The notes below the pieces were generated by a model. That model ran no database searches and was not told where the DNA came from. It was given only the letters and a program-made list of their open reading frames with translations. A stretch of 64,000 nucleotides of DNA from Pelagimonas varians. Its GTDB lineage: Bacteria > Pseudomonadota > Alphaproteobacteria > Rhodobacterales > Rhodobacteraceae. Location: assembly GCF_003208435.1 (NCBI RefSeq), contig NZ_QKMF01000005.1, positions 1 through 64,000 of the forward strand, in the 5' to 3' direction. Below, piece after piece: positions 42,359-64,000 of this stretch. The translations under genes were made by a program, and so were the position numbers. How positions within the stretch are numbered: the first letter of the stretch is position 1; each line of letters opens with the position of its first letter.

Positions 42359-42563
42359 GATCTGACCGGCTCTTTTCAAACTTTATGGTCCTCGGTCGTT
42401 TTTTCCACACTCTTGTCTGCTGCGTCGCACCTGCCGGACTTTTTGTCCAAGGGACTGCGTCATTGCGCAAAAAAACATCTCCTATGTAAAAAATCATGGC
42501 GTCTGGCCCTGTATCCACCGGGCTAGGGTTGCAATAGTGCGGCCGAAGTTGGGGAGAGCAGAC

Positions 42564-43268
42564 ATGGTTGATCTGTGGGATGGTATGTCCCGCGCATTCT
42601 GGCTTGTGGTGACATTGGACGCAGAGCTGGTCGAGATCGCTTTGCGGTCCTTGCAAGTCACCCTGATCGCCTTGGTTGTTGCTTCGGCAATTGCACTGCC
42701 AATGGCCGCGTTGCTAACGGTGCGCAGGTTCAAAGCGCGCCGTACAGTCATCGCAGTGTTGAATGCTTTGATGGGGTTGCCGCCGGTTGTGGTTGGCCTT
42801 GTCGTTTATGTTTTATTGTCGCGTTCTGGCCCCTTTGGTGTGTTGGGATTGCTGTTCACACCAACGGCAATGGTGATAGCTCAGGTCATCATCATTGTTC
42901 CGCTCATCGCCAGCATTGCACATCAATCGTTGCGCGATCTCTGGGCTGAATACCACGATCTGCTGATTTCGATGAATGTCACCCAGTTTCAAAAGATTTC
43001 GACGCTTTTGTGGGATGCGCGCCGTGCTTTGTTGACGGCCTCGCTGGCAGGGTTCGGCCGCGCCATCGGCGAGGTTGGGGCGATCATGATTGTCGGCGGC
43101 AACATTGACCATTCTACGCGTGTTTTGACCACGGCCATTGCGCTTGAAACAGGCAAAGGTGATTTTGCCTTGGCGCTGGGGCTTGGCTTTGTGTTGATCG
43201 CCTTGGCAATTGTTGTCAACTTGGCGATCCATTGGCTGGGCCGGACCGAACGGGAGGGGCGTTGGTGA
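42564..43268 (+). CDS. tupB: Tungstate-type ABC transporter permease TupB
   Basis: The 234-residue permease has about five to six membrane helices and the ABC-contact EAA-like loop around FGRAIGEVGAIMIVGGNI near residue 175. PPVVVGLVVYVLLSRSGPFG near 75 is typical of Tup/Wtp/Mod-family permeases. GGGGAGAG seven bases before ATG 42564 fixes the start. It heads tupB-tupC-tupA with 4-base overlaps; the neighbouring formate dehydrogenase explains a need for W or Mo. Confidence 0.85.
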   Translation: MVDLWDGMSRAFWLVVTLDAELVEIALRSLQVTLIALVVASAIALPMAALLTVRRFKARRTVIAVLNALMGLPPVVVGLVVYVLLSRSGPFGVLGLLFTPTAMVIAQVIIIVPLIASIAHQSLRDLWAEYHDLLISMNVTQFQKISTLLWDARRALLTASLAGFGRAIGEVGAIMIVGGNIDHSTRVLTTAIALETGKGDFALALGLGFVLIALAIVVNLAIHWLGRTEREGRW

Positions 43269-43978
43269 GCACTCTGTTTCCATTGGTGGCAAAAGGGGCC
43301 ATAACATCGCGGCGCGGCAAGGTTTTGGTGGGCCCGGTCGATTTGACCTTGGACGGGCGGGGGACATGTGTCGTGATCGGGCCAAATGGCGCGGGCAAAA
43401 CAACTTTGCTGCGCCTGCTGCACGGGGCCGCGCGTTTGACCAAAGGCTCAATCACTTGGGCTTGTCCAACCGAGCAGGCCCGCCACAATCAGGCCTTCGT
43501 GTTTCAACGGCCAGTGATGTTGCGCCGGTCGGTCGAGGAAAATCTGATTTATCCTTTGCGCGCCCACGGCATGCCCAAAGCCGAAGCGCGCGATTTGGCG
43601 CAAAACTGGGCCGAGCGTGTTGGTTTGCAAGAGATGCTACGCCGTCCTGCACCTGTTCTGTCAGGTGGCGAGCAGCAAAAACTGGCCCTTGCGAGGGCAT
43701 TGATCATTAACCCCAAGCTGGTTTTTCTGGATGAACCTTGCGCATCATTGGATGGTCGTGCAATGCGAGAGATCGAAGCGATTTTGCATGAGGCCAGCAG
43801 CAATGGAACCCGTCTTGTTTTGTCCACACATGATATGGGTCAAGCACGCAGGTTGGCTGATACTGTAGTGTTTTTGCTCAATGGGCAGGTGCATGAACAA
43901 GCGCCGTCGTCCAAGTTTTTTACTGCGCCTGAAACACCTCAGGCCGCTGCATTCCTCAAGGGAGATATCGTGGAATGA
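43265..43978 (+). CDS. tupC: Tungstate-type ABC transporter ATP-binding protein TupC
   Basis: The 237-residue ATPase has Walker A GPNGAGKTTLL near residue 42, Q-loop FVFQRPVMLRRSV, signature VLSGGEQQKLALARAL near 140, Walker B LVFLDEPCASLD and the H-loop STHDMGQAR. The GTG start at 43265 overlaps the tupB stop as GTGA and follows GGAGGGG. It lacks a C-terminal TOBE-type regulatory domain, as expected for the short Tup-class ATPases. Confidence 0.9.
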   Translation: MSTLFPLVAKGAITSRRGKVLVGPVDLTLDGRGTCVVIGPNGAGKTTLLRLLHGAARLTKGSITWACPTEQARHNQAFVFQRPVMLRRSVEENLIYPLRAHGMPKAEARDLAQNWAERVGLQEMLRRPAPVLSGGEQQKLALARALIINPKLVFLDEPCASLDGRAMREIEAILHEASSNGTRLVLSTHDMGQARRLADTVVFLLNGQVHEQAPSSKFFTAPETPQAAAFLKGDIVE

Positions 43979-44775
43979 AACTGATAGTTGCTAGCCTGTT
44001 TGCCGCTGTTATTGGCACCGTATCTTATGCGGGGGATGCTATGAAAATGGCGGTGACCACGTCTTTTAATAATTCGGGATTGGCAGATGTTTTGCTGCCG
44101 GAAATCGAAAAAGATTTGGATCTTGAGGTTCAGTTGCTGGTGGTTGGTACGGGGCAAGCGCTCACACTTGGCCGCGCAGGAGATGTGGATGCGATTTTGG
44201 TACACAGCCGTCAGGCCGAAGAAAAGTTTCTGGCCGACGGCTTTGGCACCAATCGCCGCGAAATCATGTATAATGATTTTGTCTTTATCGGCCCCAAAGA
44301 CGATCCCGCTGCCATCGACGGAGTGCCAACTGCGGTCAGCGCGTTGCAAAACATTGCCAGTAGCAGTTCCCGTTTTGTGAGCCGCGGCGATGACAGTGGC
44401 ACCCACAAAAAAGAGCTGAGTCTGTGGGGGTCCGCCAATTTGGATCCAGAAACATTTGGCGATTGGTATCGCGCCGTCGGATCAGGCATGGGGGCGGCTT
44501 TGAACACGGCATCCGGAATGAACGCTTATATCATGTCCGATCGTGCAAGTTGGCTGAACTTTGGCAACAAAGGCGACCTTGCGCTGCTGTATGCGGGCGA
44601 TCCTGTGCTGTTCAACCAATATGCGTTTTTGCCGGTCAATCCCGAATTGCATCCACATGTCAAAACGGATCTGACCAAAAAACTGGAGGGGTGGTTGGTG
44701 TCTGATCGCGCCAAAGAACTGATTGATACCTACAAGATCAATGGCGAAACTTTGTTTGTGTTCAACGCCGAATAG
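43975..44775 (+). CDS. tupA: Tungstate ABC transporter substrate-binding protein TupA
   Basis: The 266-residue periplasmic protein has a signal peptide ending SYA (about residue 19) and two oxyanion-contact motifs of TupA: TTSFNNSGL near 28 in place of TTTSTxxSG, and SRGDDSGTHKKEL near 136. VGTGQALTLGRAGDVDAIL near 57 is also characteristic. TupA binds tungstate very tightly and prefers it to molybdate in characterised cases; selectivity here is inferred. ATGA overlap with tupC. Confidence 0.9.
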   Translation: MKLIVASLFAAVIGTVSYAGDAMKMAVTTSFNNSGLADVLLPEIEKDLDLEVQLLVVGTGQALTLGRAGDVDAILVHSRQAEEKFLADGFGTNRREIMYNDFVFIGPKDDPAAIDGVPTAVSALQNIASSSSRFVSRGDDSGTHKKELSLWGSANLDPETFGDWYRAVGSGMGAALNTASGMNAYIMSDRASWLNFGNKGDLALLYAGDPVLFNQYAFLPVNPELHPHVKTDLTKKLEGWLVSDRAKELIDTYKINGETLFVFNAE

Positions 44776-44831: not shown

Positions 44832-45314
44832 TTAATACTCGTCTACAGACCCGTGGATCGCCAACTGGTCCAGCCCCGCATCTTGCGGCTCGATGACGCG
44901 AAAGGCTTCGCGCACCCCCGAGGGGGTCAATTCACGTGACACCGTCAGCAAAGTATTCGCGGTGTGATCGTCGCATAAATCGACCATGTGAGTCAGCTCG
45001 TCGCTGGCAACCGGGCGCGCGGCCTCAACCGATGGTGCGCCGTAATAGGTGACAAAATGCTGTGCCAGAAGGTCGATCAGCACAGCCAGTTCTGCCTCAG
45101 TGATGTCGGTCACCGCGACGAATGTCACACGGCCTGACGTTTCGAGCCCGAACCAGCCATTTGCAAAGGCCTGTCTGGCTTTGCCGCTAAGATCGGCTTC
45201 GGACCAGTTGGAAAATTCGAACCCGCCTGACACGCACCATTCGCCTGTTTGGGCGGGGGAATGGAAAACACGTTGGTCGGATTCGTCAAAATGGATCGCG
45301 CGGGCGAGTTTCAT
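44832..45314 (-). CDS. DUF6505 family protein, formate dehydrogenase locus
   Basis: This 160-residue soluble protein begins MKLARAIHFDESDQRVFHSP and contains CVSGGFEFSNW and QAFANGWFGLETSG; I recognise it as DUF6505, seen beside the same ligase-like and Mrp genes in Rhodobacterales. No catalytic motif is evident. Its ATG overlaps the upstream stop as TGATG. It is the last gene of the minus-strand set DUF6494-mrp-ligase-DUF6505; context suggests a role in maturing or supporting the dehydrogenase. Confidence 0.7.
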   Translation of the reverse strand: MKLARAIHFDESDQRVFHSPAQTGEWCVSGGFEFSNWSEADLSGKARQAFANGWFGLETSGRVTFVAVTDITEAELAVLIDLLAQHFVTYYGAPSVEAARPVASDELTHMVDLCDDHTANTLLTVSRELTPSGVREAFRVIEPQDAGLDQLAIHGSVDEY

Positions 45315-46018
45315 CAGCTGTTCTCCAACAATGAGGTGAGAGGGATCAAATGGGTGTCGGTGTCATCCCGCAAAAGCATGCCGAAATCCTCGTCGACTCC
45401 CAAGAATGTGCCGGTCAATGCACCTTGGGTGACAGGTTCGCCAACGCCATGCGCCAAGCCGCGCCATTCGGCGTGCAAGGGGCGGGTGCCTTCGCCTTCC
45501 CACTTGTTGATCCAGTTCAAGGAGTGACGGGACCATGCTTCAAGCAAAGCCGGGGCCTGCACATCGGCGCACCCTTCGGAATATAGCGCGGTTTGGTCGG
45601 GCCTGTCTCCGGGGCGATCATCCTCGGGCCATAGGGGCAGGGTGAAACCGATCACCAGCCAATCCGGCACGGCCTGCGGGTTCGTATCCGAAGCCATTGC
45701 CCGAAAGCCCCCGCAGGATGCGCCATTGACCAAGATCCCTCCTGACCATTCCAAATGCACAGCGACTTCGGGCGGGGCCAAAGCCCCCAGAGCATTCTGG
45801 AAGCTGATCCCGCACAAAGGCAGCATAGCCATGGCTTCGCGTAGCGGCACTTCTGGGGCGAAAACCAACGCGCCTTCCAGCGCGCTGGCCCCTAGGTGAT
45901 AGCATACAAGCCCTGCCTCGCAGCCCATGATCGCGCGCTGGCAGGCCGTTTCAAAGGCACTGCCTTCGCAGGCTTCGCCCGACATCAACGGAGGGAACTG
46001 CAGGTCTGGCGTGCTCAT
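45314..46018 (-). CDS. Biotin/lipoate-ligase fold protein with DUF4444 tail, catalytically degenerate
   Basis: The 234-residue protein resembles the BirA/LplA fold with a C-terminal SH3-like domain (about 180-234, DUF4444). Where BirA has KWPND and, ten residues after the tryptophan, the catalytic lysine of its KLAG segment, this protein reads EWSGG and NGASCGG (residues 90-104), with serine 101 at the lysine position. I also find no GRGRRGR-type loop. It is therefore unlikely to activate biotin or lipoate. It overlaps mrp (ATGA) and DUF6505 (TGATG) in the formate dehydrogenase locus, suggesting a binding or chaperone role. Start at 46018 follows the coupling. Confidence 0.7.
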   Translation of the reverse strand: MSTPDLQFPPLMSGEACEGSAFETACQRAIMGCEAGLVCYHLGASALEGALVFAPEVPLREAMAMLPLCGISFQNALGALAPPEVAVHLEWSGGILVNGASCGGFRAMASDTNPQAVPDWLVIGFTLPLWPEDDRPGDRPDQTALYSEGCADVQAPALLEAWSRHSLNWINKWEGEGTRPLHAEWRGLAHGVGEPVTQGALTGTFLGVDEDFGMLLRDDTDTHLIPLTSLLENS

Positions 46019-47076
46019 GCTTTGCCCCATGCCACCAGTGCGTTGGCAATGTCATGAAAGGCCCGTGCTTGTGGGCCGTCCGGTGCGCTGACAGTGATGG
46101 GTGCGCCGCCGTCTGCAGCCAATCGAATGTCGAGGTGCAAAGGTACTTCGGCAAGCAAGGGAACACCCAGTTTCGCGGCCTCAGCGGCAACGCCGCCATG
46201 CCCGAAAAGATGCTCCTCGTGCCCGCATTTAGAACATACGTGAGTCGACATGTTTTCGATCATGCCCAAAATGGGCACGTTCAACTGATTGAACATATCG
46301 ATCCCCTTGCGGGCGTCGATCAATGCAACGTCTTGGGGGGTGGAAACAATAATGGCACCGTCGATAAGGGCTTTTTGGGCCAGAGTCATCTGGACGTCAC
46401 CGGTGCCGGGCGGCAGGTCAACGATCAGAACGTCTAATGCGCCCCACTGAACCTGCGTCAGCATTTGCTGCAACGCGCCCATCAGCATCGGACCGCGCCA
46501 AACGACAGCCTGGTCATCATTTGTCATCAGGCCAAGCGACATCATCGTGACACCGTGATTACGCATGGGCAGGATTGTTTTGCCATCCGGTGAAGAGGGC
46601 CGGCCGCTGACGCCAAGCATCCTTGGTTGGCTGGGCCCGTAAACATCGGCGTCCAGCAGTCCAACTTTGCGGCCCTGCGCGGCCAAGGCGCAGGCGAGGT
46701 TCGCCGACACTGTGGATTTGCCGACACCGCCCTTGCCCGATGCAACGGCGATGATATGCGCGATGCCGGGGATGCGTTGTGGGCCTTTGGGTTCGGCGGG
46801 TTTCGATGGTTTCAGATCCGGCGGCGCGGCGTTGGAATGTCCGGTCAGAACAACCGAGACGCTGTTGACGCCGTCAATTGCCTTGACCCGTGTTTCTGCT
46901 TCGTCGCGGACCGGTTCGAACAGTTTGGCATGTTCGGGTGCGATTTCGATCACAAAGCGCACGGTGCCGTCGCCGACATTCAATGCACGCATGGCCCCGC
47001 TGGCAACAATGTCGCCGCCGGCAACTGGGTCGGTGATGGTTTTTAGAACCTCAAGAACGGCTTCTCTGTTTGCCAC
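46015..47076 (-). CDS. Mrp/NBP35-family iron-sulfur carrier ATPase (ApbC-like)
   Basis: The 353-residue protein has an N-terminal MIP18/DUF59-like domain (about 1-80), a deviant Walker A SGKGGVGKSTVSANLA near residue 113, DLPPGTGDVQMTL near 215 and the cluster-binding CSKCG near 280. Such proteins bind and transfer [4Fe-4S] clusters. The start is GTG at 47076 after AGGA. In this locus it could supply clusters to FdhA, FdhB or the large ferredoxin-like protein, although it may equally be the general ApbC of the cell. Confidence 0.93.
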   Translation of the reverse strand: MANREAVLEVLKTITDPVAGGDIVASGAMRALNVGDGTVRFVIEIAPEHAKLFEPVRDEAETRVKAIDGVNSVSVVLTGHSNAAPPDLKPSKPAEPKGPQRIPGIAHIIAVASGKGGVGKSTVSANLACALAAQGRKVGLLDADVYGPSQPRMLGVSGRPSSPDGKTILPMRNHGVTMMSLGLMTNDDQAVVWRGPMLMGALQQMLTQVQWGALDVLIVDLPPGTGDVQMTLAQKALIDGAIIVSTPQDVALIDARKGIDMFNQLNVPILGMIENMSTHVCSKCGHEEHLFGHGGVAAEAAKLGVPLLAEVPLHLDIRLAADGGAPITVSAPDGPQARAFHDIANALVAWGKA

Positions 47077-47079
47077 GGA

Positions 47080-47271
47080 TCAATCCTGCCCTTTGATTTC
47101 GCCAGTGACTTCATGCGTCATGTCCAGCTCTTCGATGGTGATCACGGCTTTGACTGCAAAGGTCTTTCCGTCTGCCTTTGCATCCCGCATCGCGTCCTCA
47201 ATTGCTTGTTGGGATGTAACACCAACCTGTTTGAGAAACTTGCGCATGGACATGTTGAAATCGTCGCTCAT
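47080..47271 (-). CDS. DUF6494 family small protein
   Basis: The 63-residue product (MSDDFNMSMRKFLKQVGVTS..., ending GEIKGQD) matches DUF6494, a small soluble family found directly upstream of mrp in Rhodobacterales. It has no cysteine and no membrane segment. GGAG eight bases before the ATG gives a clear start. Only 57 bases separate it from the divergent TupA-like cytochrome gene, so the two share a promoter region. Function is unknown. Confidence 0.75.
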   Translation of the reverse strand: MSDDFNMSMRKFLKQVGVTSQQAIEDAMRDAKADGKTFAVKAVITIEELDMTHEVTGEIKGQD

Positions 47272-47328: not shown

Positions 47329-48069
47329 ATGCGTATAGGCCTTTTCATTACTTTGTTGCTTTTGCTGCCGCTGACTGCGGTTGCAGAAGATCGCTTGGTT
47401 CGGTTGTATGTTCCGCAGGGATTGGCGGAAACCGGATTGTTGAAACACATCTTGCCGCGTTTTTCTCTGAAAACCCAGATCAAGGTTGAGCTGGTCAGTG
47501 ATCCGGCACAGGCGGACATTGCGCTGGGTGCGGATGGTCGACCGTTGTTTCAGGGTGGGCAAACAGTTTGGCACGTGAAACGCCAGCGTGAAGGACATGC
47601 CGGTACGGACCGATTTGCCAAATGGCTGCGTTCTGAAGTTGGCATGCGCACGATCACCGGCTTTGCACCACAAGGGACCGCGTTGTTTACACCACCCCCC
47701 GAAACCGTGGCGGAGGCCGAGGATATGACTCTTGAGGGCAATAGCGTTTTGGGCCACACCACGTCGAAAACCAAGTGCGCCCGATGCCACGTTGTGGACG
47801 AAGCGACGCGGCTGACCAGCATTGGATCGACCCCTAGTTTTTTCGTGTTGCGCAGCCTGTCCGACTGGCAAGAACGGTTCGCGACGTTTTATGATTTGAA
47901 CCCCCACCCGTCTTTTACCCAAGTGGCGGATTTGACGGACCCGTTCCCCCTCGATCGACCACCACCTATCGTGCCCGTCGAAATGACGCTGGACGAAATT
48001 TCGGCGATCTTGGCCTATGTGTCGGGGCTGCAAGCCGCCGATCTGGGGAAACCGTTGGTGCATCAATAA
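47329..48069 (+). CDS. Short TupA-like domain fused to a c-type cytochrome segment
   Basis: The 246-residue exported protein has a signal peptide (1-19, ...LTAVA). Residues 22-122 echo the two ends of a TupA/ModA-type binding protein: ETGLLKHILPRFSLKTQIKV resembles the SGLADVLLPEIEKDLDLEV of the neighbouring TupA, and FAKWLRSEVG...FAPQGTALF resembles its C-terminal LEGWLVSDRA...YKINGETLF. The middle is missing. Then CARCH (150-154) is a c-heme site, with MTLDEISAILAYVSGL near the end as in class I cytochromes. An AAGGG lies very close to the ATG; the frame continues upstream only antisense to DUF6494. Likely a periplasmic electron carrier or sensor of the formate dehydrogenase system. Confidence 0.7.
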   Translation: MRIGLFITLLLLLPLTAVAEDRLVRLYVPQGLAETGLLKHILPRFSLKTQIKVELVSDPAQADIALGADGRPLFQGGQTVWHVKRQREGHAGTDRFAKWLRSEVGMRTITGFAPQGTALFTPPPETVAEAEDMTLEGNSVLGHTTSKTKCARCHVVDEATRLTSIGSTPSFFVLRSLSDWQERFATFYDLNPHPSFTQVADLTDPFPLDRPPPIVPVEMTLDEISAILAYVSGLQAADLGKPLVHQ

Positions 48070-48074
48070 CAGCC

Positions 48075-50021
48075 CTAGTGATCGCGCCGTTTTGACAGGT
48101 AATCTTCGGTGGTGCGGACTTTTGGGCGTTCCTTGCCTTCGAACGGATTATTTTGCGCATGGAACTGCGCATCGACGCGGCAGTTGTCACACATCTGGAT
48201 CATCTTAAGCGCATCGGGGCGCTGGAACATGCTATGCGATTCCAGTTTTTCCGTTATTTTTTCGATGGTTGATTTCACCCCGAACAGCGATCCGCACTGG
48301 ATGCAGGCAAAGGGCTCTTCTTCGTTTACAACCCGCTGCGATAGCGCGGCGTCGGTCAAATCCAGTTGCGGTTTGTACGTGATTGCGTCTTCCGGGCAGA
48401 CATGGGCGCACAGGCCACACTGAAGGCAGGCGTCTTCCTGAAACCGGAGCTGCGGCAGGTCAGGATTGTCGCCAAGCGCCCCTGACGGGCAGAGCGACAC
48501 GCATGACAGGCACAAGGTACAACTGTCGGTATTGATCTCAACCGCGCCATAGGGGGCATTGTCCGGAAGCTGTAGGATATCTGCGTCGGGGTTGAGCGCA
48601 CGGGCGGCTTGGCGGGTGATTTGGCGGCGTGTGCCCATGGGCCGAATTGGGGAGGCGACAGGGGCAGGGGCGGCTTCGGCGTAGAGCGTATCGGACATCG
48701 CGTCTGGGTCGGTTGTGTCCAAAAGCGTAACGCTGCCAGCGCCGCCGATGGCCGCTGCTAGGGCAATTTGGGTCGCCAGCGCTTGGCGGTCGGTCGCCGG
48801 TCCGGGCAGCAATGTGACAGAAGCAAATCCGGCGGCAAGGGCGGCAACGGCTTCGGCATGTCCGAACAAGTTCAGGGCCGGGACTTCCATCGGGATGACA
48901 TCCGCGGGCAAGCCGCGTCCGTGACGTGCGGACAGGCGCACCATTTCGGCACCATGGGCGTCACTGACCATCAAACGCGGCGCGGTGCCACCTGCATCCA
49001 GAAAGGCCTTGGCCAATGTTTGAACGCGGCGCATCGTTAGATCGACAGGCGGTGCATCATAGCTGATGGCTCCCGACGGGCATGCCGCCGAACAGGCCCC
49101 GCACCCTGCGCAGGCCATTGGATCGATGCTGACATGGTCGCCTGCCGGGGAAATCGCGCCGGTGGGACATAGATCAAGGCAGTTGGTACAGCCGGTTTGT
49201 TCCGCCCGCGAATGGGCGCACAGCAAGGGTTCGGCCCGCACATAAAGTGGCTTTTCGAATGTGCCAACCATATGCGATGCGGCTAAAATGGCCGCCGAGA
49301 TCGATGGTGGATGCGCCGGATCTGCACGCAGATATCCTTCGCGTTTTTCGGGCGCCGGGAAAAGCGGTGTGCCGCCTGTTAGGTCTAGCAAAATGTCACA
49401 CATGGACTTCCCGCCATCGCGCGGGTCGGACAGGCTGGGGCCACGGCCACCTGGGTTTGGCATTTGCAGGGCGTCGATGGCCACTTCGAACTGGCCCAAG
49501 GCACCGGAGGCCCTGCGCAGACGGCCAACAACAACGTCAAATTTGGCTGTATCCGGGACATCCTTGGCGTGGTCCAAAAGAACAGTAACGCTCAGATAGT
49601 CTTGCAACTGCTCTGCCACGGCCAGCGTTGTTTCAGCTGGCCCTGTGATCAGGCACAGCCCTTCGGAAATAACATCACGCGTCTTAGCGGGAGAGGCGGG
49701 CAATAGGGCCTCGGCGGCAAGGGCGGACATTTTGGGCAGTTTCGAGGCGGTATCTTCGCTCCATCCGGCCCGATCACGCAGGTCCAAAAGGGGGGCATCG
49801 GGCTGCCCGATTTCCTCGGCCAGAGCTTCGAACACCTGAGACTGTTGGGTGCAACAAATAATTGCATCACCTTCCTCAAGCGCCTTCACGGCTCGGTCAA
49901 TTTGGGTGGTGCACAGGGTCTGGCAGGGTTTTGAGACCTCTAGTCCGGTGGATTGCTTGAGCCCCTCAGTATCCAATTGCATTGACCCCATACAATCACA
50001 CGTAATCAGAGACTTAGGCAT
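48075..50021 (-). CDS. Large multi-cluster 4Fe-4S ferredoxin-like protein of the formate dehydrogenase locus
   Basis: This 648-residue cytoplasmic protein has four CxxCxxC-type clusters: around residues 278-285, 304-314, 501-511 and 532-542, in two ferredoxin pairs separated by about 190 residues. A CxxC (573-576) and second CxxC (611-614) near the C-terminus could bind zinc or iron, and further cysteines lie at 8, 10, 33, 37, 56 and 57. The N-terminal 270 residues have no recognised domain. It is divergent from the DUF3305-fdh operon over a 344-base gap. Similar genes accompany alphaproteobacterial FDH; it may be an electron donor or a maturation factor. Confidence 0.75.
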   Translation of the reverse strand: MPKSLITCDCMGSMQLDTEGLKQSTGLEVSKPCQTLCTTQIDRAVKALEEGDAIICCTQQSQVFEALAEEIGQPDAPLLDLRDRAGWSEDTASKLPKMSALAAEALLPASPAKTRDVISEGLCLITGPAETTLAVAEQLQDYLSVTVLLDHAKDVPDTAKFDVVVGRLRRASGALGQFEVAIDALQMPNPGGRGPSLSDPRDGGKSMCDILLDLTGGTPLFPAPEKREGYLRADPAHPPSISAAILAASHMVGTFEKPLYVRAEPLLCAHSRAEQTGCTNCLDLCPTGAISPAGDHVSIDPMACAGCGACSAACPSGAISYDAPPVDLTMRRVQTLAKAFLDAGGTAPRLMVSDAHGAEMVRLSARHGRGLPADVIPMEVPALNLFGHAEAVAALAAGFASVTLLPGPATDRQALATQIALAAAIGGAGSVTLLDTTDPDAMSDTLYAEAAPAPVASPIRPMGTRRQITRQAARALNPDADILQLPDNAPYGAVEINTDSCTLCLSCVSLCPSGALGDNPDLPQLRFQEDACLQCGLCAHVCPEDAITYKPQLDLTDAALSQRVVNEEEPFACIQCGSLFGVKSTIEKITEKLESHSMFQRPDALKMIQMCDNCRVDAQFHAQNNPFEGKERPKVRTTEDYLSKRRDH

Positions 50022-50365: not shown

Positions 50366-50932
50366 TTGATCCACAATCCTAAAATGTATGAGGCAATGCC
50401 GCTGGGCGTTGTTCTTCGAAAGACGCCGGGCGTAACGCGCTGGGTGCCTTGGGTGTGGAAAGCTGTCGCCGTTCTCCCGGGGGCAGGCCCTGCGGAATTC
50501 CGCGAGATGCGCCGCGAAGGTGAAGCAATTGAATACCACGCAGCCACCCTAACGCTAGAACTGCACGGAGCCGAGACCGAAGCGTATTTACACGGGCTAA
50601 CAGCCAAGGTTCCCAGCATTTATGTCGTGATGCGCGAAGGCGAAGGCGATTGCCCTCTAGATATGTTGCTAGTCACAGCTTCGCCCTACGAGGCACAAGA
50701 CTACACAGACAGTGGCGAAGAGCTGGTTGAAAAGGTTCCAATGCCTATCGGTCTGATGGCTTGGGTGCGCGCTTTTGTAGAGGAATTCCACGAAGACGAA
50801 GTTTTCGTGAAGCGCCGCCGCGACAAGAAACGGACGGATATGGTTGAGGACGGTATTGGAGATGCGCGTATTGCGCAGACAGCCGATGTCTACCGGTCCC
50901 CCACCGGCCGTAAAAAAGCGAGGTTGCAGTGA
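50366..50932 (+). CDS. DUF3305 family protein
   Basis: The 188-residue soluble protein matches DUF3305 (MPLGVVLRKTPGVTRWVPWVW near the start; ASPYEAQDYTDSGEELVEKV near 110; basic C-terminus), a family almost confined to formate dehydrogenase operons. TTG at 50366 with GGGAGG nine bases upstream is taken as start; ATGs at 50384 and 50396 are alternatives. It is followed by DUF3306 with a TGATG overlap. The role is presumed to be enzyme maturation; no biochemical function is known to me. Confidence 0.8.
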   Translation: MIHNPKMYEAMPLGVVLRKTPGVTRWVPWVWKAVAVLPGAGPAEFREMRREGEAIEYHAATLTLELHGAETEAYLHGLTAKVPSIYVVMREGEGDCPLDMLLVTASPYEAQDYTDSGEELVEKVPMPIGLMAWVRAFVEEFHEDEVFVKRRRDKKRTDMVEDGIGDARIAQTADVYRSPTGRKKARLQ

Positions 50933-51573
50933 TGGATCTTTGGTCGCGCCGCAAAGCCGCTGTAGAAGCAGAAGCCATCGCCGAGGTGAAAGCCGAAGAG
51001 GCGATCGTTAAAGCCGACGTTGAGGCGGTTCAAGCCGAACAGACAGACGAAGAGCTGTTGGAGCAGCTGGGTCTGCCTGATCCGGACAGCTTGGGCGAAG
51101 GGGCTGATTTTAAACAATTCATGGGTGATGCGATTCCTGCGCGGCTTAAGACCCGTGCGCTCCGGCGTTTGTGGTCTGTGAACCCGTTATTGGCCAATAT
51201 TGATGGATTGGTCGACTATGGTGAAGATTTTACCGATGCCGCGATGTGCGTCGAGAACATGCAAAGCGCCTATCAGGTCGGCAAAGGCATGATGGCCCAC
51301 GTCGAGGAGTTGGCGCGTCAGGCCGAAGAAGAGGCTGCCGCGGAAGACGCTGATGCAGAGTCAGAGCAAGACATTGAAGAACCGGCAATTGATCCGGTTC
51401 GCCCGCCCCAACCCCAAGACAAAGAAGCTGTGCTGGCTTTTGCTGCGCAATCCGCCCAAGATGAGGAACCGTTCCAGCCAGAATGGGACGACGCCCCCGA
51501 GGACGCAGCCACAGCCCCTATGCCGGGCTCGCGCCGCATGACATTCACATTTGACGACCAGAGGACAGGATGA
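50932..51573 (+). CDS. DUF3306 family protein
   Basis: The 213-residue acidic protein begins MDLWSRRKAAVEAEA, has a charged alanine/glutamate-rich N-terminus, and a central block ALRRLWSVNPLLANIDGLVDYGEDFTD that is the DUF3306 signature. The C-terminal third is low-complexity and acidic. It is translationally coupled to DUF3305 before (TGATG) and to the TorD-type chaperone after (ATGA). Like DUF3305 it tracks with formate dehydrogenases; function unknown. Confidence 0.82.
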   Translation: MDLWSRRKAAVEAEAIAEVKAEEAIVKADVEAVQAEQTDEELLEQLGLPDPDSLGEGADFKQFMGDAIPARLKTRALRRLWSVNPLLANIDGLVDYGEDFTDAAMCVENMQSAYQVGKGMMAHVEELARQAEEEAAAEDADAESEQDIEEPAIDPVRPPQPQDKEAVLAFAAQSAQDEEPFQPEWDDAPEDAATAPMPGSRRMTFTFDDQRTG

Positions 51574-52190
51574 CCGCAGCAGTGGACACCACTCAGACCG
51601 CCCCCCAAATCGCCCAAGAGGATCGGCTGCGTGCTGACCTTTACAACTTCGTTGGCTTGATCCTTGCGGGTCCGCCGGATGAACTCTTGCTTGCCCAAAC
51701 CGCCAGTCTAAGCGGGGATGACAGTGAACTGGGCAAGGCGATCAGCACCCTTGCCAAAGTGGCAAAGATCACCAAACCGAAGGCTGTCGAAAGCGAATAT
51801 AACAAGCTTTTCATCGGACTGGGGCGTGGTGAATTGCTGCCCTATGCATCCTATTACCTGACCGGATTTCTGAACGAAAAGCCGCTTGCTCAGCTGCGCC
51901 GCGATATGGTCGCGCGCGGGTTGGAGAGGGCGAAGAACGTTTTTGAACCCGAAGACAATATCGCCAGCCTGATGGAAATGATGGGTGCGTTGGTTGTGGG
52001 CCGTTTCGGAAACCCGGCAACGCTGGACGAACAAAAGACCTTCTTTAATCGGCACATCGGCCCTTGGGCTTCGCATTTCTTTGCTGACCTAGAGGGGGCA
52101 AAGAATTCGATTTTCTACGCGTCGGTCGGCACTGTTGGCCGCGCCTTTATGGAAATCGAAACCGAAGCCTTTCGGTTGAGTGGTGAATGA
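51570..52190 (+). CDS. TorD/DmsD-family molybdoenzyme chaperone
   Basis: The 206-residue all-helical protein has the family landmarks EYNKLFIGLGRGELLPYASYYL near residue 75 (the E-x3-LF-x-G...PY core) and FFNRHIGPWASHFFADLE near 155. Such chaperones hold the Tat signal and apo-form of a molybdo/tungsto-enzyme until cofactor is inserted. It lies directly ahead of the Tat-signal peptide gene and fdhA, its likely client. Confidence 0.9.
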   Translation: MTAAVDTTQTAPQIAQEDRLRADLYNFVGLILAGPPDELLLAQTASLSGDDSELGKAISTLAKVAKITKPKAVESEYNKLFIGLGRGELLPYASYYLTGFLNEKPLAQLRRDMVARGLERAKNVFEPEDNIASLMEMMGALVVGRFGNPATLDEQKTFFNRHIGPWASHFFADLEGAKNSIFYASVGTVGRAFMEIETEAFRLSGE

Positions 52191-52260
52191 TCCTGCCTTG
52201 TTCTCAGGGCATTTCGAGTGGCGGGAAACCGTCAGAACACATCAAGGGGAGTTTCCCAAG

Positions 52261-52446
52261 ATGACAAAAGAAACCAAGGCATCCCGCCGCGATTTCTTGA
52301 AAATGGCTGGAACCACAGCGCCCGTAGCGGCACTGGCGATTGCGGCCGGCACAGGTGAGGCAGAAGCCGCCGCGCCTGATCTGGCATCTGACAAGATGCA
52401 AGATACCGCGCACACCCGCGCCTATTTCGATTCCGCCCGGTTCTGA
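52261..52446 (+). CDS. Small Tat-signal protein of formate dehydrogenase operons
   Basis: The 61-residue product is almost entirely a twin-arginine signal: ASRRDFLKMAG at residues 7-17, a hydrophobic stretch, then AEAAAP and a 25-residue tail ending YFDSARF. It matches the TIGR02811-type 'formate dehydrogenase region TAT target' family. GGGGAG nine bases upstream of ATG 52261 supports the start. It may be a small periplasmic or membrane subunit; function is unproven. An inverted repeat CTTTCGG...CCGAAAG follows in the 121-base gap to fdhA. Confidence 0.85.
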   Translation: MTKETKASRRDFLKMAGTTAPVAALAIAAGTGEAEAAAPDLASDKMQDTAHTRAYFDSARF

Positions 52447-52567
52447 ACCGGACGTGATCATACCCGCCTTTCGGCAACTGGTTGCGTGACGCCCGACTGC
52501 CCGAAAGATCTTACGCAATACCAAGCAAGCTGGGGTTTAAACCCATGCACGCAAGGGAGAGAGAAAC

Positions 52568-55465
52568 ATGCTTAGGAAAAAGACCAACGGGGTTGCGCGA
52601 CGCCCCCAGCGGACCAGTATCCTGTCTGAAGCTGCGAACGCTTCAGTAGACCGCCGCGCCTTTTTGCGCGGATCAGGTCTGGCGATTGGCGGCCTGGCCG
52701 CGATTGCTGCCACTGGCGGTACGGTTCAGCAGGCTTCGGCCGCGACAGCCGCATCCAGCACGGTGGAGACCAAGAAATCCATCTGCACGCATTGCTCGGT
52801 CGGTTGTACCGTCGTGGCAGAAGTGCAGAACGGTGTTTGGGTTGGGCAAGAGCCCGGCTGGGACAGCCCGTTCAACCTTGGTGCACATTGCGCCAAAGGG
52901 GCCGCTGTTCGCGAACACGCGCACGGTGAACGCCGTCTGAAATACCCTATGAAAAAAGAGGGTGGAGAATGGAAGCGCATCAGCTGGGAACAGGCGATCA
53001 ACGAGATCGGCGACGGCATGATGAATATCCGGGAAGAAAGTGGCCCGGATAGCGTTTATTGGCTGGGTTCGGCCAAACATTCCAACGAACAAGCCTATCT
53101 GTTCCGCAAATTTGCTGCCTATTGGGGCACAAACAACGTGGACCATCAGGCGCGTATTTGTCACTCAACCACAGTTGCCGGTGTTGCGAACACCTGGGGC
53201 TACGGTGCGATGACAAACTCGTACAACGACATCCACAATTCCAAAGCGATCTTTATCATTGGTGGTAACCCTGCCGAAGCGCACCCCGTTTCGCTGCTCC
53301 ACGTTTTGAAGGCGAAAGAGCAAAACAACGCTCCGCTGATCGTTTGTGACCCACGCTTTACCCGTACTGCGGCCCATGCGGACGAATATGTTCGTTTCCG
53401 TCCCGGTACAGACGTTGCGTTGATCTGGGGTATCTTGTGGCACATGTTCGAAAACGGTTGGGAGGACAAAGAGTTCATCCGCACCCGTGTTTGGGGCATG
53501 GATCAGATCCGTGAAGAAGTCGCCAAGTGGACACCTGAAGAAGTCGAGCGTGTCACTGGTACGCCCGGTTCTCAGCTGCGCCGCGTTGCCCGCACAATGG
53601 CGAACAACCGTCCCGGCACCGTAATCTGGTGTATGGGTGGTACGCAGCACACCAACGGCAACAACAACACCCGCGCGTATTGCGTGCTTCAGCTGGCGCT
53701 GGGCAACATGGGCACCTCGGGTGGTGGCACAAACATCTTCCGTGGCCACGACAACGTTCAAGGTGCTACCGACCTTGGTGTTCTGTCGCACACATTGCCG
53801 GGCTACTATGGCCTGTCCAATGGTGCATGGGCTCACTGGGCGCGTGTTTGGGAAGAAGACGGCGAATGGTTGGGCAATCAGTTTGCCAAGACAACTGGTG
53901 CCGACGGCAAGGAAAAGTCGCTTCAGAACCTCACCGGTATTCCGGTGTCGCGTTGGATCGACGGCGTACTTGAAGATCCGGAAAACATGGACAACCCAGA
54001 CAAGGTCCGGGCCATGGTTCTTTGGGGTCACGCACCCAACTCGCAGACACGCGGGCCGGAAATGAAAACAGCAATGGAAAAGCTGGATATGTTGGTCGTC
54101 ATTGACCCGTTCCCAACTGTTTCCGCTGTTATGCACGACCGTACAGATGGCGTCTATTTGCTGCCTGCGGCAACACAGTTCGAGACATATGGCTCGGTCA
54201 CTGCGTCCAACCGTTCGCTTCAGTGGCGTGAACAGATCATGGACCCGCTCTTTGAATCCAAGCCAGACCAGGAAATCATTGGCCTGCTTGCGCAAAAGTT
54301 CGGCTTCCACGAACGTCTGTTCCGCAACATTGGCCTTGAAGAAGATGGCATTACGCCAAACGTCGAAGAGACGCTTCTTGAGATCAACAAAGGCATGTGG
54401 ACCATTGGTTATACGGGCCAGACACCTGACCGCCTGAAACTGCACATGGCCAACCAGCACACGTTCGACAGAACAACGCTGCAGGCTATTGGCGGCGCGG
54501 CTGATGGTGATTACTACGGTCTGCCATGGCCTTGCTGGGGCACCGCGGAAATGAACCACCCCGGTACGCCGAACCTGTACGACATGTCCAAGCCGGTTTC
54601 TGAAGGTGGTTTGACCTTCCGTGCACGCTTTGGCGTGGAACGTGACGGTGACAACCTGCTGGCCGACGGCGTCTACAGTGTGAACTCGGAAATCCAGGAC
54701 GGGTATCCGGAATTCACCATGCAGATGTTGATGGATCTGGGTTGGGATGGTGATCTGACTGACGAAGAGCGTGCCTCGATTGACGCTGTCGCCGGTCCGA
54801 AAACCAACTGGAAAACCGACCTGTCGGGCGGTATCCAGCGTGTCGCAATCAAGCACGAATGTGCGCCCTTCGGGAACGCCAAAGCCCGCGCTGTTGTGTG
54901 GACATTCCCGGATCCGGTGCCTGTGCACCGCGAACCGCTGTACACACCACGCCGCGATCTGGTTGCGGACTACCCAACCTACGAGGACCGCAAGTTCTAT
55001 CGCTTGCCAACCATGTATGCGTCGATCCAAAAGAACGACTTCTCCAAGGACTTCCCGATCATCCTGACCTCTGGTCGTTTGGTTGAATACGAAGGCGGCG
55101 GTGAAGAGACCCGTTCGAACGCTTGGCTTGCCGAGCTTCAGCAGGACATGTTCGTCGAGATCAACCCACGCGATGCCAACAACCTTGGTGTTCGTGACGG
55201 GGCGCAGGTCTGGGTCGAAGGTCCTGAAGGCGGCAAAGTCAAAGTCATGGCAATGGTTACCAATCGGGTCGGTGAAGGCGTTGCCTTTATGCCGTTCCAC
55301 TTTGGTGGTCATTTCCAAGGTGAGGATCTACGGAGCAAGTACCCTGACGGTGCTGATCCGTATGTATTGGGCGAAAGCACCAACACGGCCCAAACCTACG
55401 GTTACGACAGTGTCACCCAAATGCAGGAGACGAAATGTACTCTCTGCAAAATCTCAGCAGCATAA
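52568..55465 (+). CDS. fdhA: Formate dehydrogenase catalytic (alpha) subunit, Tat-exported, Cys type
   Basis: The 965-residue bis-MGD oxidoreductase has a Tat signal (DRRAFLRG, arginines 29-30). An N-terminal [4Fe-4S] site is formed by C73, C76, C80 and C108 (CTHCSVGC...HCAKG). The metal ligand Cys198 is followed by His199 in HQARICHST, the formate dehydrogenase Cys/Sec-His pair; here it is cysteine (not selenocysteine). The molybdopterin-dinucleotide-binding domain lies at the C-terminus (from about residue 820). It oxidises formate to CO2, facing the periplasm given the Tat signal. The adjacent Tup transporter suggests tungsten or molybdenum. GGGAGAGAG precedes the ATG. Confidence 0.95.
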   Translation: MLRKKTNGVARRPQRTSILSEAANASVDRRAFLRGSGLAIGGLAAIAATGGTVQQASAATAASSTVETKKSICTHCSVGCTVVAEVQNGVWVGQEPGWDSPFNLGAHCAKGAAVREHAHGERRLKYPMKKEGGEWKRISWEQAINEIGDGMMNIREESGPDSVYWLGSAKHSNEQAYLFRKFAAYWGTNNVDHQARICHSTTVAGVANTWGYGAMTNSYNDIHNSKAIFIIGGNPAEAHPVSLLHVLKAKEQNNAPLIVCDPRFTRTAAHADEYVRFRPGTDVALIWGILWHMFENGWEDKEFIRTRVWGMDQIREEVAKWTPEEVERVTGTPGSQLRRVARTMANNRPGTVIWCMGGTQHTNGNNNTRAYCVLQLALGNMGTSGGGTNIFRGHDNVQGATDLGVLSHTLPGYYGLSNGAWAHWARVWEEDGEWLGNQFAKTTGADGKEKSLQNLTGIPVSRWIDGVLEDPENMDNPDKVRAMVLWGHAPNSQTRGPEMKTAMEKLDMLVVIDPFPTVSAVMHDRTDGVYLLPAATQFETYGSVTASNRSLQWREQIMDPLFESKPDQEIIGLLAQKFGFHERLFRNIGLEEDGITPNVEETLLEINKGMWTIGYTGQTPDRLKLHMANQHTFDRTTLQAIGGAADGDYYGLPWPCWGTAEMNHPGTPNLYDMSKPVSEGGLTFRARFGVERDGDNLLADGVYSVNSEIQDGYPEFTMQMLMDLGWDGDLTDEERASIDAVAGPKTNWKTDLSGGIQRVAIKHECAPFGNAKARAVVWTFPDPVPVHREPLYTPRRDLVADYPTYEDRKFYRLPTMYASIQKNDFSKDFPIILTSGRLVEYEGGGEETRSNAWLAELQQDMFVEINPRDANNLGVRDGAQVWVEGPEGGKVKVMAMVTNRVGEGVAFMPFHFGGHFQGEDLRSKYPDGADPYVLGESTNTAQTYGYDSVTQMQETKCTLCKISAA

Positions 55466-55477
55466 GGAGACCGGAAT

Positions 55478-56071
55478 ATGGCACGAGCTAAGTTCCTATG
55501 TGATGCCGAACGCTGCATCGAGTGTAACGCCTGCGTCACCGCATGTAAGAACGAGCACGAAGTTCCCTGGGGGATCAACCGCCGCCGCGTGGTAACGATC
55601 CAGGACGGGAACCCCGGCGAACGTTCGATTTCGGTGGCTTGTATGCACTGTTCAGACGCGCCTTGTATGGCCGTTTGTCCAACAGATTGCTTCTACCAGA
55701 CCGAAGACGGTGTGGTTTTGCATTCCAAGGACCTGTGCATTGGGTGTGGTTATTGCTTCTATGCGTGCCCCTTCGGTGCGCCGCAGTATCCGCAGGCTGG
55801 CAACTTCGGCTCCCGTGGTAAGATGGACAAATGTACCTTCTGCGCCGGCGGACCTGAAGAAAACCACTCGAACGCAGAGTTCTCCAAATACGGTCGCAAC
55901 CGTATTGCAGAAGGCAAACTGCCGATTTGTGCGGAAATGTGTTCCACCAAGGCCTTGCTGGCCGGTGATGGCGATGTTGTGTCGGCCATCTACCGCGAGC
56001 GTGTCGTTTCCCGCGGCTTCGGCTCGGGTGCTTGGGGCTGGGGCACTGCCTACGAGCAAAAGGCAGGCTGA
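55478..56071 (+). CDS. fdhB: Formate dehydrogenase iron-sulfur (beta) subunit
   Basis: The 197-residue protein has four [4Fe-4S] cysteine sets: CIECNACVTAC near residue 13, CMHCSDAPCMAVCP near 55, CIGCGYCFYACPFG near 88 and the split set beginning CTFC near 117 with C149/C153. It relays electrons from FdhA to the cytochrome b subunit. Unlike E. coli FdnH it has no C-terminal membrane anchor, resembling Wolinella-type FdhB, and no signal of its own, so it probably rides the Tat pathway with FdhA. AAGGAG precedes the ATG, 12 bases after fdhA. Confidence 0.95.
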   Translation: MARAKFLCDAERCIECNACVTACKNEHEVPWGINRRRVVTIQDGNPGERSISVACMHCSDAPCMAVCPTDCFYQTEDGVVLHSKDLCIGCGYCFYACPFGAPQYPQAGNFGSRGKMDKCTFCAGGPEENHSNAEFSKYGRNRIAEGKLPICAEMCSTKALLAGDGDVVSAIYRERVVSRGFGSGAWGWGTAYEQKAG

Positions 56072-56080
56072 CGCTTTGGA

Positions 56081-56141
56081 TGGGCGGGTTTATTCCCGCC
56101 CAGCACCTATCATTCGGGGCGGTCTTGGGGTTCCAAGACCG
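56081..56141 (+). promoter_or_regulatory. Two tandem hairpins in the fdhB-fdhC gap
   Basis: Two perfect stems lie in the 115-base gap: TGGGCGGG / CCCGCCCA with a TTTATT loop (56081-56102) and CGGTCTTGG / CCAAGACCG with a GGTT loop (56120-56141), the second extendable by three pairs around a bulge. Neither is followed by a T-run, so they look like mRNA processing or stability elements setting subunit ratios rather than terminators. Confidence 0.5.
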
Positions 56142-56186
56142 GCCCGTTCCCTTATTCGAATTCAAATTCTCCAAGGAGGGTGACAC

Positions 56187-57407
56187 ATGCTGCGCATGGC
56201 ACTCGCACTTGTCTTATCGCTGTTGCTGACCACCACTGTCGCACAAGCTGATGAGGTGACCAGTACATCTGCACCCGATCGCTCTGCCACGGGCGGCGCG
56301 ACAACGCTTGAGGACATCATGGCCCGCCAACGGGGCGAGACCGTGGACGACAGCTATCGCCGTGACAACACCGGCGACGCCAGCGCGGATCCCGGCGCAG
56401 CGCAGCTGGGCACGCTAGGCGGCGCATCTGATCCTGAATTGTGGCGCGCGCTACGATATGGTTCGGCCGATGTTACGACTGCCGCCCGCAATAGCGGGGC
56501 AACAACGCTGGTCCAAGATGGCGGCATGTGGTGGTTAAATTTCCGTGAAGGCCCGTTGGTCACCTATGGCGGCTGGTTGTTGCTTGGCACTATCGGTGCG
56601 TTGATCCTGTTTTATCTGACACGCGGCAAGATCGCTATAGACGAGCCGATGACTGGCCGCACTGTCACACGCTTCAAGTTTATCGAACGCTTTGCACATT
56701 GGGTGTTGGGTGGTTCATTTATCCTGCTGGGATTCACGGGCCTGTTTGTTCTAATGGGCCGTTTGTTTATCGCGCCGTATCTGGGCAAAGATTTCAACTC
56801 AACGCTGCTGACTGCGTCCAAACTGATCCACAACAATGTCGCATGGGCCTTTATCCTTGGCTTGGTCATGGTGTTGGTCATGTGGGTTTGGCACAATATT
56901 CCGGACCGGACCGACATCAAATGGTTCGCCCAATTTGGTGGGATCATTGGTAAAAACCACCCCCCCGCCAAGAAGTTCAATGGCGGGCAGAAGATCATCT
57001 TTTGGTCTGTGATCGTGTTTGGCGGATCGATTGCCGTGTCTGGCGTATCGTTGTTGTTCCCATATGAATTGCCGCTGTTTGCCAAAACCTTTGCGTTTCT
57101 GAACGACATTGGCGCGCCGGGTTGGGTGGGTATGTCACCCTTGCCAATCTCGCTTTCGCCTCAAGAGGAAATGCAGTTCGCCCAGCTTTGGCATGCTATC
57201 ATGGCCTTTGTTTTGATGGCTATCGTGCTGGCGCATATCTACATCGGCTCGGTCGGGATGCAGGGCGCGTATGATGCTATGGGCACCGGCGAAGTGGATG
57301 AGGCATGGGCCCATCAACACCATTCGATCTGGCTCGACGAAGAACTGGTCAAGCGGGGTGATCCCCCACGGGATGCCAAGCCTGAAAAAGTGACGCCGGC
57401 TGAATAA
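56187..57407 (+). CDS. fdhC: Formate dehydrogenase cytochrome b (gamma) subunit
   Basis: The 406-residue membrane subunit starts with a signal peptide (about 1-22) and a 90-residue polar region. About five helices follow, beginning with one near residue 120; the four-helix cytochrome b core shows heme-ligand candidates in ERFAHWVLGG, LIHNNVAWAF, QLWHAIMAF and LAHIYIGSVG. It passes electrons from FdhB to quinone. AAGGAGGG precedes the ATG. The polar N-terminal extension is also seen in other FdoI-like proteins of this type. Its stop overlaps the next ATG as TAATG. Confidence 0.93.
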   Translation: MLRMALALVLSLLLTTTVAQADEVTSTSAPDRSATGGATTLEDIMARQRGETVDDSYRRDNTGDASADPGAAQLGTLGGASDPELWRALRYGSADVTTAARNSGATTLVQDGGMWWLNFREGPLVTYGGWLLLGTIGALILFYLTRGKIAIDEPMTGRTVTRFKFIERFAHWVLGGSFILLGFTGLFVLMGRLFIAPYLGKDFNSTLLTASKLIHNNVAWAFILGLVMVLVMWVWHNIPDRTDIKWFAQFGGIIGKNHPPAKKFNGGQKIIFWSVIVFGGSIAVSGVSLLFPYELPLFAKTFAFLNDIGAPGWVGMSPLPISLSPQEEMQFAQLWHAIMAFVLMAIVLAHIYIGSVGMQGAYDAMGTGEVDEAWAHQHHSIWLDEELVKRGDPPRDAKPEKVTPAE

Positions 57408-63619: not shown

Positions 63620-63768
63620 GCGCGTCACTTTCCCGGTTCGGGTGCCTTTTGAGTTGACGAAACGTACCCAAGGCGGGCGGTATGGGCAATCTCTTTTGGT
63701 CATTGCGCTTTTCACCAGCCGCGCATCTGCTATTTCAGGTTCGAAATGCGTTAAAGAGGGCAGACCTG

Positions 63769-64000
63769 ATGACCGATCGTTTTCGTCTGACACTGGCACA
63801 GTTGAACCCCACCGTCGGGGATTTGCACGGCAATGCCGCCAAAGCGCGTGATGCGTGGCAGCAAGGTAAAGAAGCGGGCTCCGATATGGTGGCCCTGCCT
63901 GAGATGTTTATCACCGGCTACAATGCCCAGGATTTGGTGATGAAGCAGGCGTTTCATGTCGATGCGATCAAGGTGATCGAACAATTGGCTGCGGATTGTG
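63769..64000 (+). CDS. nadE: Glutamine-dependent NAD+ synthetase, N-terminal part (partial)
   Basis: The first 77 residues are present and the frame runs off the window. The start, RFRLTLAQLNPTVGDLHGNA, and VALPEMFITGYNAQDLVMK, with the nitrilase-family glutamate in LPE, match the N-terminal glutaminase (nitrilase) domain of the long NadE form. That enzyme amidates nicotinate adenine dinucleotide with glutamine-derived ammonia. GAGGG precedes the ATG. Confidence 0.9.
   Translation, partial: MTDRFRLTLAQLNPTVGDLHGNAAKARDAWQQGKEAGSDMVALPEMFITGYNAQDLVMKQAFHVDAIKVIEQLAADC

Follow-up and report, generated by a model that had tools for sequence, protein, structure and literature searches.

TupA, the binding protein of tungstate uptake, has two lobes around an anion cleft. 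In the Desulfovibrio structure, lobe A comprises residues 2–76 and 201–251, and lobe B, residues 91–200, bears R118, T124 and D170 (PMC5517513, in part). Isolated halves of another periplasmic binding protein, ribose-binding protein, fold, yet they bind no ligand (PMC10601554, in part). MtoD is a class I cytochrome with a single, bis-His heme and a proposed role as a periplasmic shuttle (PMC4412085, in part). A moeA1-mobB-tupBCA cluster in Methylorubrum extorquens is taken as a hint of joint control of tungsten uptake and formate dehydrogenase cofactor assembly (PMC13197769, in part), and DUF3305 and DUF3306 are reported next to fdhGHI operons (PMC4464133, in part).

Here we describe a protein that joins a TupA lobe to a monoheme cytochrome. 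Both parts are known; their fusion is previously unrecognised, and its function is predicted from sequence. A literature search, with most subscription journals outside it, found no paper joining TupA, formate dehydrogenase, cytochrome c and Rhodobacteraceae, and among the matches listed no title or abstract opening described this fusion. Five matching plasmid records annotate the protein as 'hypothetical protein' (four) or 'c-type cytochrome' (one). It is a natural, conserved case in which a single lobe of a periplasmic binding protein has been retained and put to use on a predicted electron carrier, and it bears on the evolution of binding-protein lobes and the possible uses of a lone lobe. 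Within one alphaproteobacterial family it is common, and there it probably serves periplasmic formate dehydrogenase as an accessory component for electron transfer.

The gene, which we call cytX, lies in a 64,000-nucleotide stretch of Pelagimonas varians DNA, hereafter the window (Table 1). Its reading frame runs from the ATG at 47329 through 246 codons to a stop codon at 48067–48069. The small DUF6494-type gene on its left is divergent from it and 57 bases away. As originally predicted, cytX sits inside a formate dehydrogenase locus that also encodes a full TupA. A gene for a multi-4Fe-4S protein on the opposite strand intervenes between cytX and the formate dehydrogenase operon, so by its position cytX is probably a transcription unit of its own, inside the locus and outside the operon. 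Within that operon, DUF3305, DUF3306, the TorD-like protein, FdhB and FdhC were named by Pfam, and FdhX and FdhA by the gene order of Sagittula stellata; a Pfam search with FdhX gave no match.

Table 1. Position of cytX, its parts and its neighbours in the window
Feature	Coordinates	Strand	Basis
cytX (label coined here), TupA-lobe/cytochrome c fusion, 246 aa	47329..48069	+	ORF and translation
Putative signal peptide of cytX, residues 1-19, MRIGLFITLLLLLPLTAVA	47329..47385	+	Judged by eye, without a predictor
Lobe segment 1, residues 20-57, similar to TupA start (22-57)	47386..47499	+	hhalign; PDB 3muq, 3lr1
PRFxLK signature, residues 43-48	47455..47472	+	R44 in 105/105, K48 in 104/105 fused proteins
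Lobe segment 2, residues 60-122, similar to TupA end (200-265)	47506..47694	+	hhalign; PDB 5my5, 3cvg
Linker, residues 123-134	47695..47730	+	Poorly conserved
Monoheme cytochrome domain, residues 135-246	47731..48066	+	Domain profile also matches lone cytochromes of other orders
CARCH heme attachment motif, residues 150-154	47776..47790	+	C, R, C and H each in 107/107
His193 (PHP motif), predicted second heme ligand	47905..47907	+	H in 107/107
Full-length TupA, used as comparison	43975..44775	+	PBP_like_2 E 2.5e-35; tung_bind_TupA E 1.6e-52, under cutoff
TupB and TupC (permease, ATPase)	42537..43978	+	NCBIfam TupB E 7.4e-50, under cutoff; second gene, many ABC ATPase families
DUF6505, biotin/lipoate ligase-like, Mrp and DUF6494 genes, conserved left neighbours	44832..47271	-	Pfam (first three); synteny
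Small DUF6494-type gene, 63 codons	47080..47271	-	Place in the annotated Sagittula locus
Multi-4Fe-4S protein, 648 aa, convergent with cytX	48075..50021	-	Pfam Fer4 families; synteny
Formate dehydrogenase operon: DUF3305, DUF3306, TorD-like, FdhX, FdhA, FdhB, FdhC	50366..57407	+	

Residues 20–122 of cytX are homologous to TupA. A family profile of residues 20–126 (105 sequences), aligned with a TupA profile by hhalign, scored 51.5 with a best local stretch of 35 columns, and a run without column trimming paired the lobe with TupA over 106 columns (probability 97.2). The controls scored far lower against TupA: at most 21.8 for 100 column shuffles, 13.8 after reversal of the profile, and no more than 15.7 for eight further gene families from the locus. 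Chance or composition is thereby excluded as the cause of the match. Taken alone, residues 20–60 aligned with TupA 22–56 (probability 91.3) and residues 60–126 with TupA 200–265 (probability 95.9), and the two segments thus map in TupA order. The TupA likeness proposed for residues 22–122 is therefore far above chance in the profile comparisons, and the profile–profile alignment points to TupA rather than to an unrelated fold.

A search of 177,635 PDB sequences (hmmsearch) with a 47-sequence family profile gave the same answer. Entries 3muq (E 1.1e-6) and 5my5 (1.2e-5) came out top, followed by 3cvg (9.7e-5), 3lr1 (4.7e-4) and 3kn3 (0.013), and lobe segment 2 matched 5my5 238–273 and 3cvg 245–282. 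Entries 5my5 and 3lr1 are TupA, 3muq and 3kn3 are classed as TupA (PMC5517513, in part), and 3cvg was deposited as a putative metal-binding protein. Profiles were needed because single-sequence searches alone would miss the match: cytX by itself found nothing in NCBIfam at E≤0.1, and phmmer against the PDB reached TupA only at E 0.63. The TupA family model NF041772 matches 10 of 20 cytX family members at E≤1 (best 0.0026). Its curated cutoff of 400 bits lies far above the score of cytX (10.8 bits) and also above that of the genuine TupA of the window, which scores just 178.5.

The lobe is also predicted to have the right shape. AlphaFold, run on the lobe alone with the window sequence and three relatives and without a template, gave a model with pLDDT 74.5 and pTM 0.61; pLDDT was at least 70 in two of five models. 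Superposition placed TupA 5my5 first among the structural matches (Z 9.8, 2.4 Å, 96 of 106 residues), then 3muq (9.5), 3kn3 (9.3), 3lr1 (8.8), ModA (8.3) and 3cvg (8.2). Foldseek likewise ranked 3muq, 3lr1 and 5my5 top, but with weak E values (0.043–0.14, none ≤0.001). The model thus predicts that residues 20–122 have the fold of one TupA lobe.

That lobe is lobe A. Both of its end segments are present in order, with the same predicted fold as in TupA (5my5, 3lr1; NF041772), whereas the TupA stretch between them, which contains lobe B, is unmatched in cytX by hhalign. The matched segments are separated by 158–163 residues in 32 of 45 TupA reading frames (108 to 190 in the remaining 13) but by 15–22 profile positions in the fusion. 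Two fusions of 279 residues (L097, L101) have extra residues between the lobe segments and a longer lobe, and are possibly less reduced forms. SRGD occurs in all 45 TupA reading frames and in none of the 105 fused proteins; TT[ST] occurs anywhere in the frame in 45/45 and 2/105, respectively, and within the first 60 residues in one fused protein. Literal TTTS, the motif named originally, is found in none of the 45 TupAs, the window TupA having VTTS.

Judged by these motifs and alignments, then, cytX retains lobe A only and has lost lobe B together with the anion-binding motifs. It differs from TupA in having no lobe B, central strand, TT[ST] or SRGD, in being fused to a cytochrome, and in falling under the family cutoffs. 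The predicted loss of the TupA middle and its anion contacts is borne out, and the idea of a truncation can be sharpened: the deletion is not arbitrary, for one structural lobe remains. Metal sensing, which the original prediction allowed for, is unlikely to work through the classic TupA clamp because the lobe carrying R118, T124 and D170 is missing. The halves of ribose-binding protein offer a parallel, as single lobes that fold without binding ligand; unlike the cytX lobe, they are engineered, belong to another binding-protein family and carry no heme (PMC10601554, in part).

What remains of the lobe is constrained. Among the 105 fused proteins, to which these counts are confined, R44 and W99 are invariant, and G36, P43, F45, K48 and G105 are each present in 104. 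The position of R44 is variable in TupA, so that its fixation in the fusions is new and fits a new binding surface. At the position equivalent to K48, one TupA subtype has K in 14 of its 22 members, and the other subtype has D in 22 of its 23. Compared with its nearest relative (protein 78% identical), the window gene has a dN of 0.197 and dS of 1.14 in the lobe (dN/dS 0.17), and 0.081 and 0.73 in the heme domain (dN/dS 0.11). Purifying selection acts on both halves of cytX, and the lobe is therefore not likely a relic.

The second half of the protein bears the expected CARCH heme motif, and the C, R, C and H of CxRCH are each invariant in 107 of 107 sequences. His193 is the only other His or Met that is invariant in this set. 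No Met column after CxxCH is conserved as a distal ligand: the best are position 162 (71/107), where the window protein has no Met, and position 219 (28/107). A Met 20 residues after CxxCH is found in 7 of 12 lone domains and 19 of the 107 sequences of the main set, and not in the window protein. Nine residues are invariant across 41 fused and lone domains, including the Cys, Cys and His of CxxCH and the P-H of PHP, and all 12 lone domains have a counterpart of His193, 39 or 40 residues past CxxCH. Since His193 is invariant and there is no conserved Met, we predict that the heme iron is ligated by His154 and His193.

An end resembling class I cytochromes was foreseen as well, but the likeness is weaker than that description suggests. 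The domain resembles class I cytochrome c (PF00034) in its CxxCH near the domain start and its C-terminal AYV stretch, and Cytochrom_C matches 15 of 20 family members at E≤1 (best 6.7e-5). However, the window protein scores 15.3 bits against a gathering score of 21.3, and the conserved distal Met is absent. MtoD is similar in its single heme, its proposed shuttle role in the periplasm and its His/His ligation, shown for MtoD and predicted for cytX; it has no added lobe and serves another pathway, and the likeness is one of description, not homology (PMC4412085, in part). The full-length AlphaFold model was poor (pLDDT 38), and the weak PDB profile matches to the heme domain were mostly limited to the heme motif.

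Homologues of cytX are present in 105 of 295 genomes of the same family, one of which (G218) is of the same genus as the window genome. Sagittula stellata E-37 carries the gene as well. In 103 genomes the protein carries the lobe, and in two (G004, G054) it is a lone cytochrome; across the aligned sequences the lobe is kept in 105 of 107. In a sample of the phylum the heme-domain profile matched 17 of 398 genomes (E≤1e-6), all within the same class, which is no proof of absence elsewhere. The viral contigs searched held no relative of cytX.

The gene is genomically linked to fdhA, as the original prediction anticipated. A close FdhA (E≤1e-200) occurs in 136 of the 295 genomes: 102 of the 105 with cytX and 34 of the 190 others. 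Wherever cytX and fdhA share a contig they are on the same strand (94/94 pairs), with fdhA 4179–6009 bases downstream; in eight pairs the two are on different contigs. Gene order across the cluster is widely conserved, running from DUF6505 through the ligase, Mrp, cytX and the 4Fe-4S protein to DUF3305 and beyond. Where Mrp and the 4Fe-4S gene could both be located in a locus without cytX, the gap between them is 62–391 bases in 18 of 19 cases, compared with at least 817 in 97 loci with cytX, and cytX is thus an optional piece of a fixed cluster. As a subunit of formate dehydrogenase cytX does not fit: it is absent from 34 of 136 dehydrogenase genomes, which makes it accessory, and it lies outside the operon.

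Nature also provides the cytochrome without the lobe. Among 385 genomes of the class, full-length fusions were found in five genomes of one family (f1) and two of another (f80), and eight further matches (E≤1.6e-22) are the heme domain alone, with weaker matches below these. Lone monoheme cytochromes of other alphaproteobacteria (L174–L183, mostly in formate dehydrogenase loci) share the heme domain, CxxCH, an SxPSF stretch and the invariant PH with cytX, and differ from it in having no TupA lobe. FdhA or other cluster genes are present in seven of these ten regions: FdhA in L174, L175, L176, L179 and L182, other cluster genes in L177 and L178, and none in L180, L181 and L183. In L174 the lone cytochrome is flanked by Mrp and the 4Fe-4S gene, just as cytX is, and in L175–L178 the region examined also contains a TupA. 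The two lone cytochromes within the same family (genomes G004 and G054; loci L107 and L108) lie on a different contig from fdhA and lack the usual neighbours: the 9.3–9.4 kb around them contains no match to the remaining 12 query genes.

The cytochrome half is a member of a family in the alphaproteobacteria with ties to formate dehydrogenase loci, and the simplest story is that a lone, dehydrogenase-linked cytochrome acquired its TupA lobe within the Rhodobacteraceae. A heme-domain tree (60 rows, 112 columns) does not order gain and loss of the lobe (four changes, few supported forks), and the lone cytochromes close to the fused ones (L107, L108, L174) may either have shed a lobe or always have been without it.

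The donor was not the TupA next door. The 45 TupAs compared fall into two subtypes, of 22 and 23 members: the first includes the TupAs beside lone cytochromes, the second those that most resemble the TupA of the window. The first subtype gives the better score with every one of the 105 lobe domains (median 29.9 versus 7.4 bits), although 14 of its 22 members (L161–L173) were gathered through similarity to the fusion, which could bias that comparison. A repeat with four TupAs chosen only by their position beside lone cytochromes agreed (median 23.5 bits). Four divergent TupAs near fused genes (L052, L101, L102, L105) scored 22.9 bits with the lobe domains, and two sets of four typical local TupAs 5.5 and 4.8 bits. 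Those four divergent TupAs are not of the window TupA's subtype but of the other, and are 44–51% identical to the window TupA. The lobe is closer to the TupAs that accompany lone cytochromes than to the window TupA, which rules out a recent duplication of the neighbouring gene as its origin. The proposal that a duplicated transporter component had been recruited thus survives in amended form: part of a TupA was recruited into a dehydrogenase-linked c-type cytochrome, and the adjacent TupA was not the source.

What might such a protein do? On balance, we lean towards a periplasmic protein that carries electrons for formate dehydrogenase in an accessory capacity, with a heme held by His154 and His193 and the TupA lobe as a docking module. 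From the domain make-up and the linkage we infer that cytX would be exported by Sec and then receive its heme, and would then, in the periplasm, pass electrons between the formate dehydrogenase system on one side and a further redox partner on the other. The lobe, no longer able to clamp an anion, would most likely be a binding surface, holding the cytochrome on a partner that could be the dehydrogenase or a membrane complex. FdhC gives formate dehydrogenase its own route to quinone. Since the locus has that route, cytX would be an accessory path next to FdhABC or a link to other partners. The presence of FdhC is itself a point against the electron-carrier role, as is the lack of a formate dehydrogenase gene in three of the ten lone-cytochrome regions. 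So are the dehydrogenase genomes that lack cytX, its position outside the operon and the two same-family lone cytochromes away from fdhA; the Met seen 20 residues after CxxCH in part of the family counts against the reading too.

A different, rather unlikely role is that of electron donor or acceptor in the maturation, repair or redox control of the exported dehydrogenase, in concert with Mrp, DUF6505, DUF6494 and the 4Fe-4S protein. It would account for the place of cytX among accessory genes, in conserved order, rather than among catalytic subunits. But none of these four partners has a signal peptide as judged by eye, so they would be cytoplasmic, whereas a c-type cytochrome is periplasmic.

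We think it improbable that cytX is a redox-responsive regulator of tungstate uptake, whose lobe docks on TupB in place of one TupA lobe while the heme state permits or blocks import. TupA (E≤1e-15) is indeed found in 103 of 105 cytX genomes, lying within 6 kb of cytX in 38 of 88 genomes among the matches listed, and the lobe is under purifying selection. Yet TupA is found in 134 of 136 dehydrogenase genomes and in 57 of 156 with neither the dehydrogenase nor cytX. In dehydrogenase genomes it is no commoner with cytX (100/102) than without (34/34), so that nothing points to a particular tie between cytX and TupA; the two that have no TupA match (G227, G290) both have cytX. The lobe, moreover, resembles a TupA subtype other than the local one, and lobe-less cytochromes occupy similar loci. 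The distribution of TupA fits tungsten use by the dehydrogenase.

We give equally little credence to a sensor, in which a heme with a labile ligand binds oxygen, NO or CO and the lobe relays the signal. The lack of a conserved distal Met speaks for it, as do the Cache-domain histidine kinase and sigma-54 response regulator downstream, but the invariant His193 suits a six-coordinate electron carrier. Slightly less credible again is the notion that formate oxidation sets a redox state which tunes tungstate import for the dehydrogenase itself, the lobe seating the heme protein on the permease or pairing with a free lobe. Least credible of all is a non-functional remnant on a working cytochrome: lobe-less relatives do occur, and one occupies the very same syntenic position, yet the lobe is kept nearly throughout, with its conserved residues, low dN/dS and newly fixed R44.

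Beyond the accessory carrier that we favour, the locus encodes a second c-type cytochrome. Right after fdhC, positions 57407–58702 encode a WD40 beta-propeller fused to a cytochrome c domain of class I (Cytochrom_C E 9.5e-10), in which a GSKMPM stretch could supply a Met ligand. Downstream of the formate dehydrogenase operon, the response regulator and histidine kinase mentioned above (58840–62115) are possibly regulators of the operon. Further on, at 62180–63799, a single protein contains many MORN repeats (Pfam MORN E 6.6e-103, 11 stretches).
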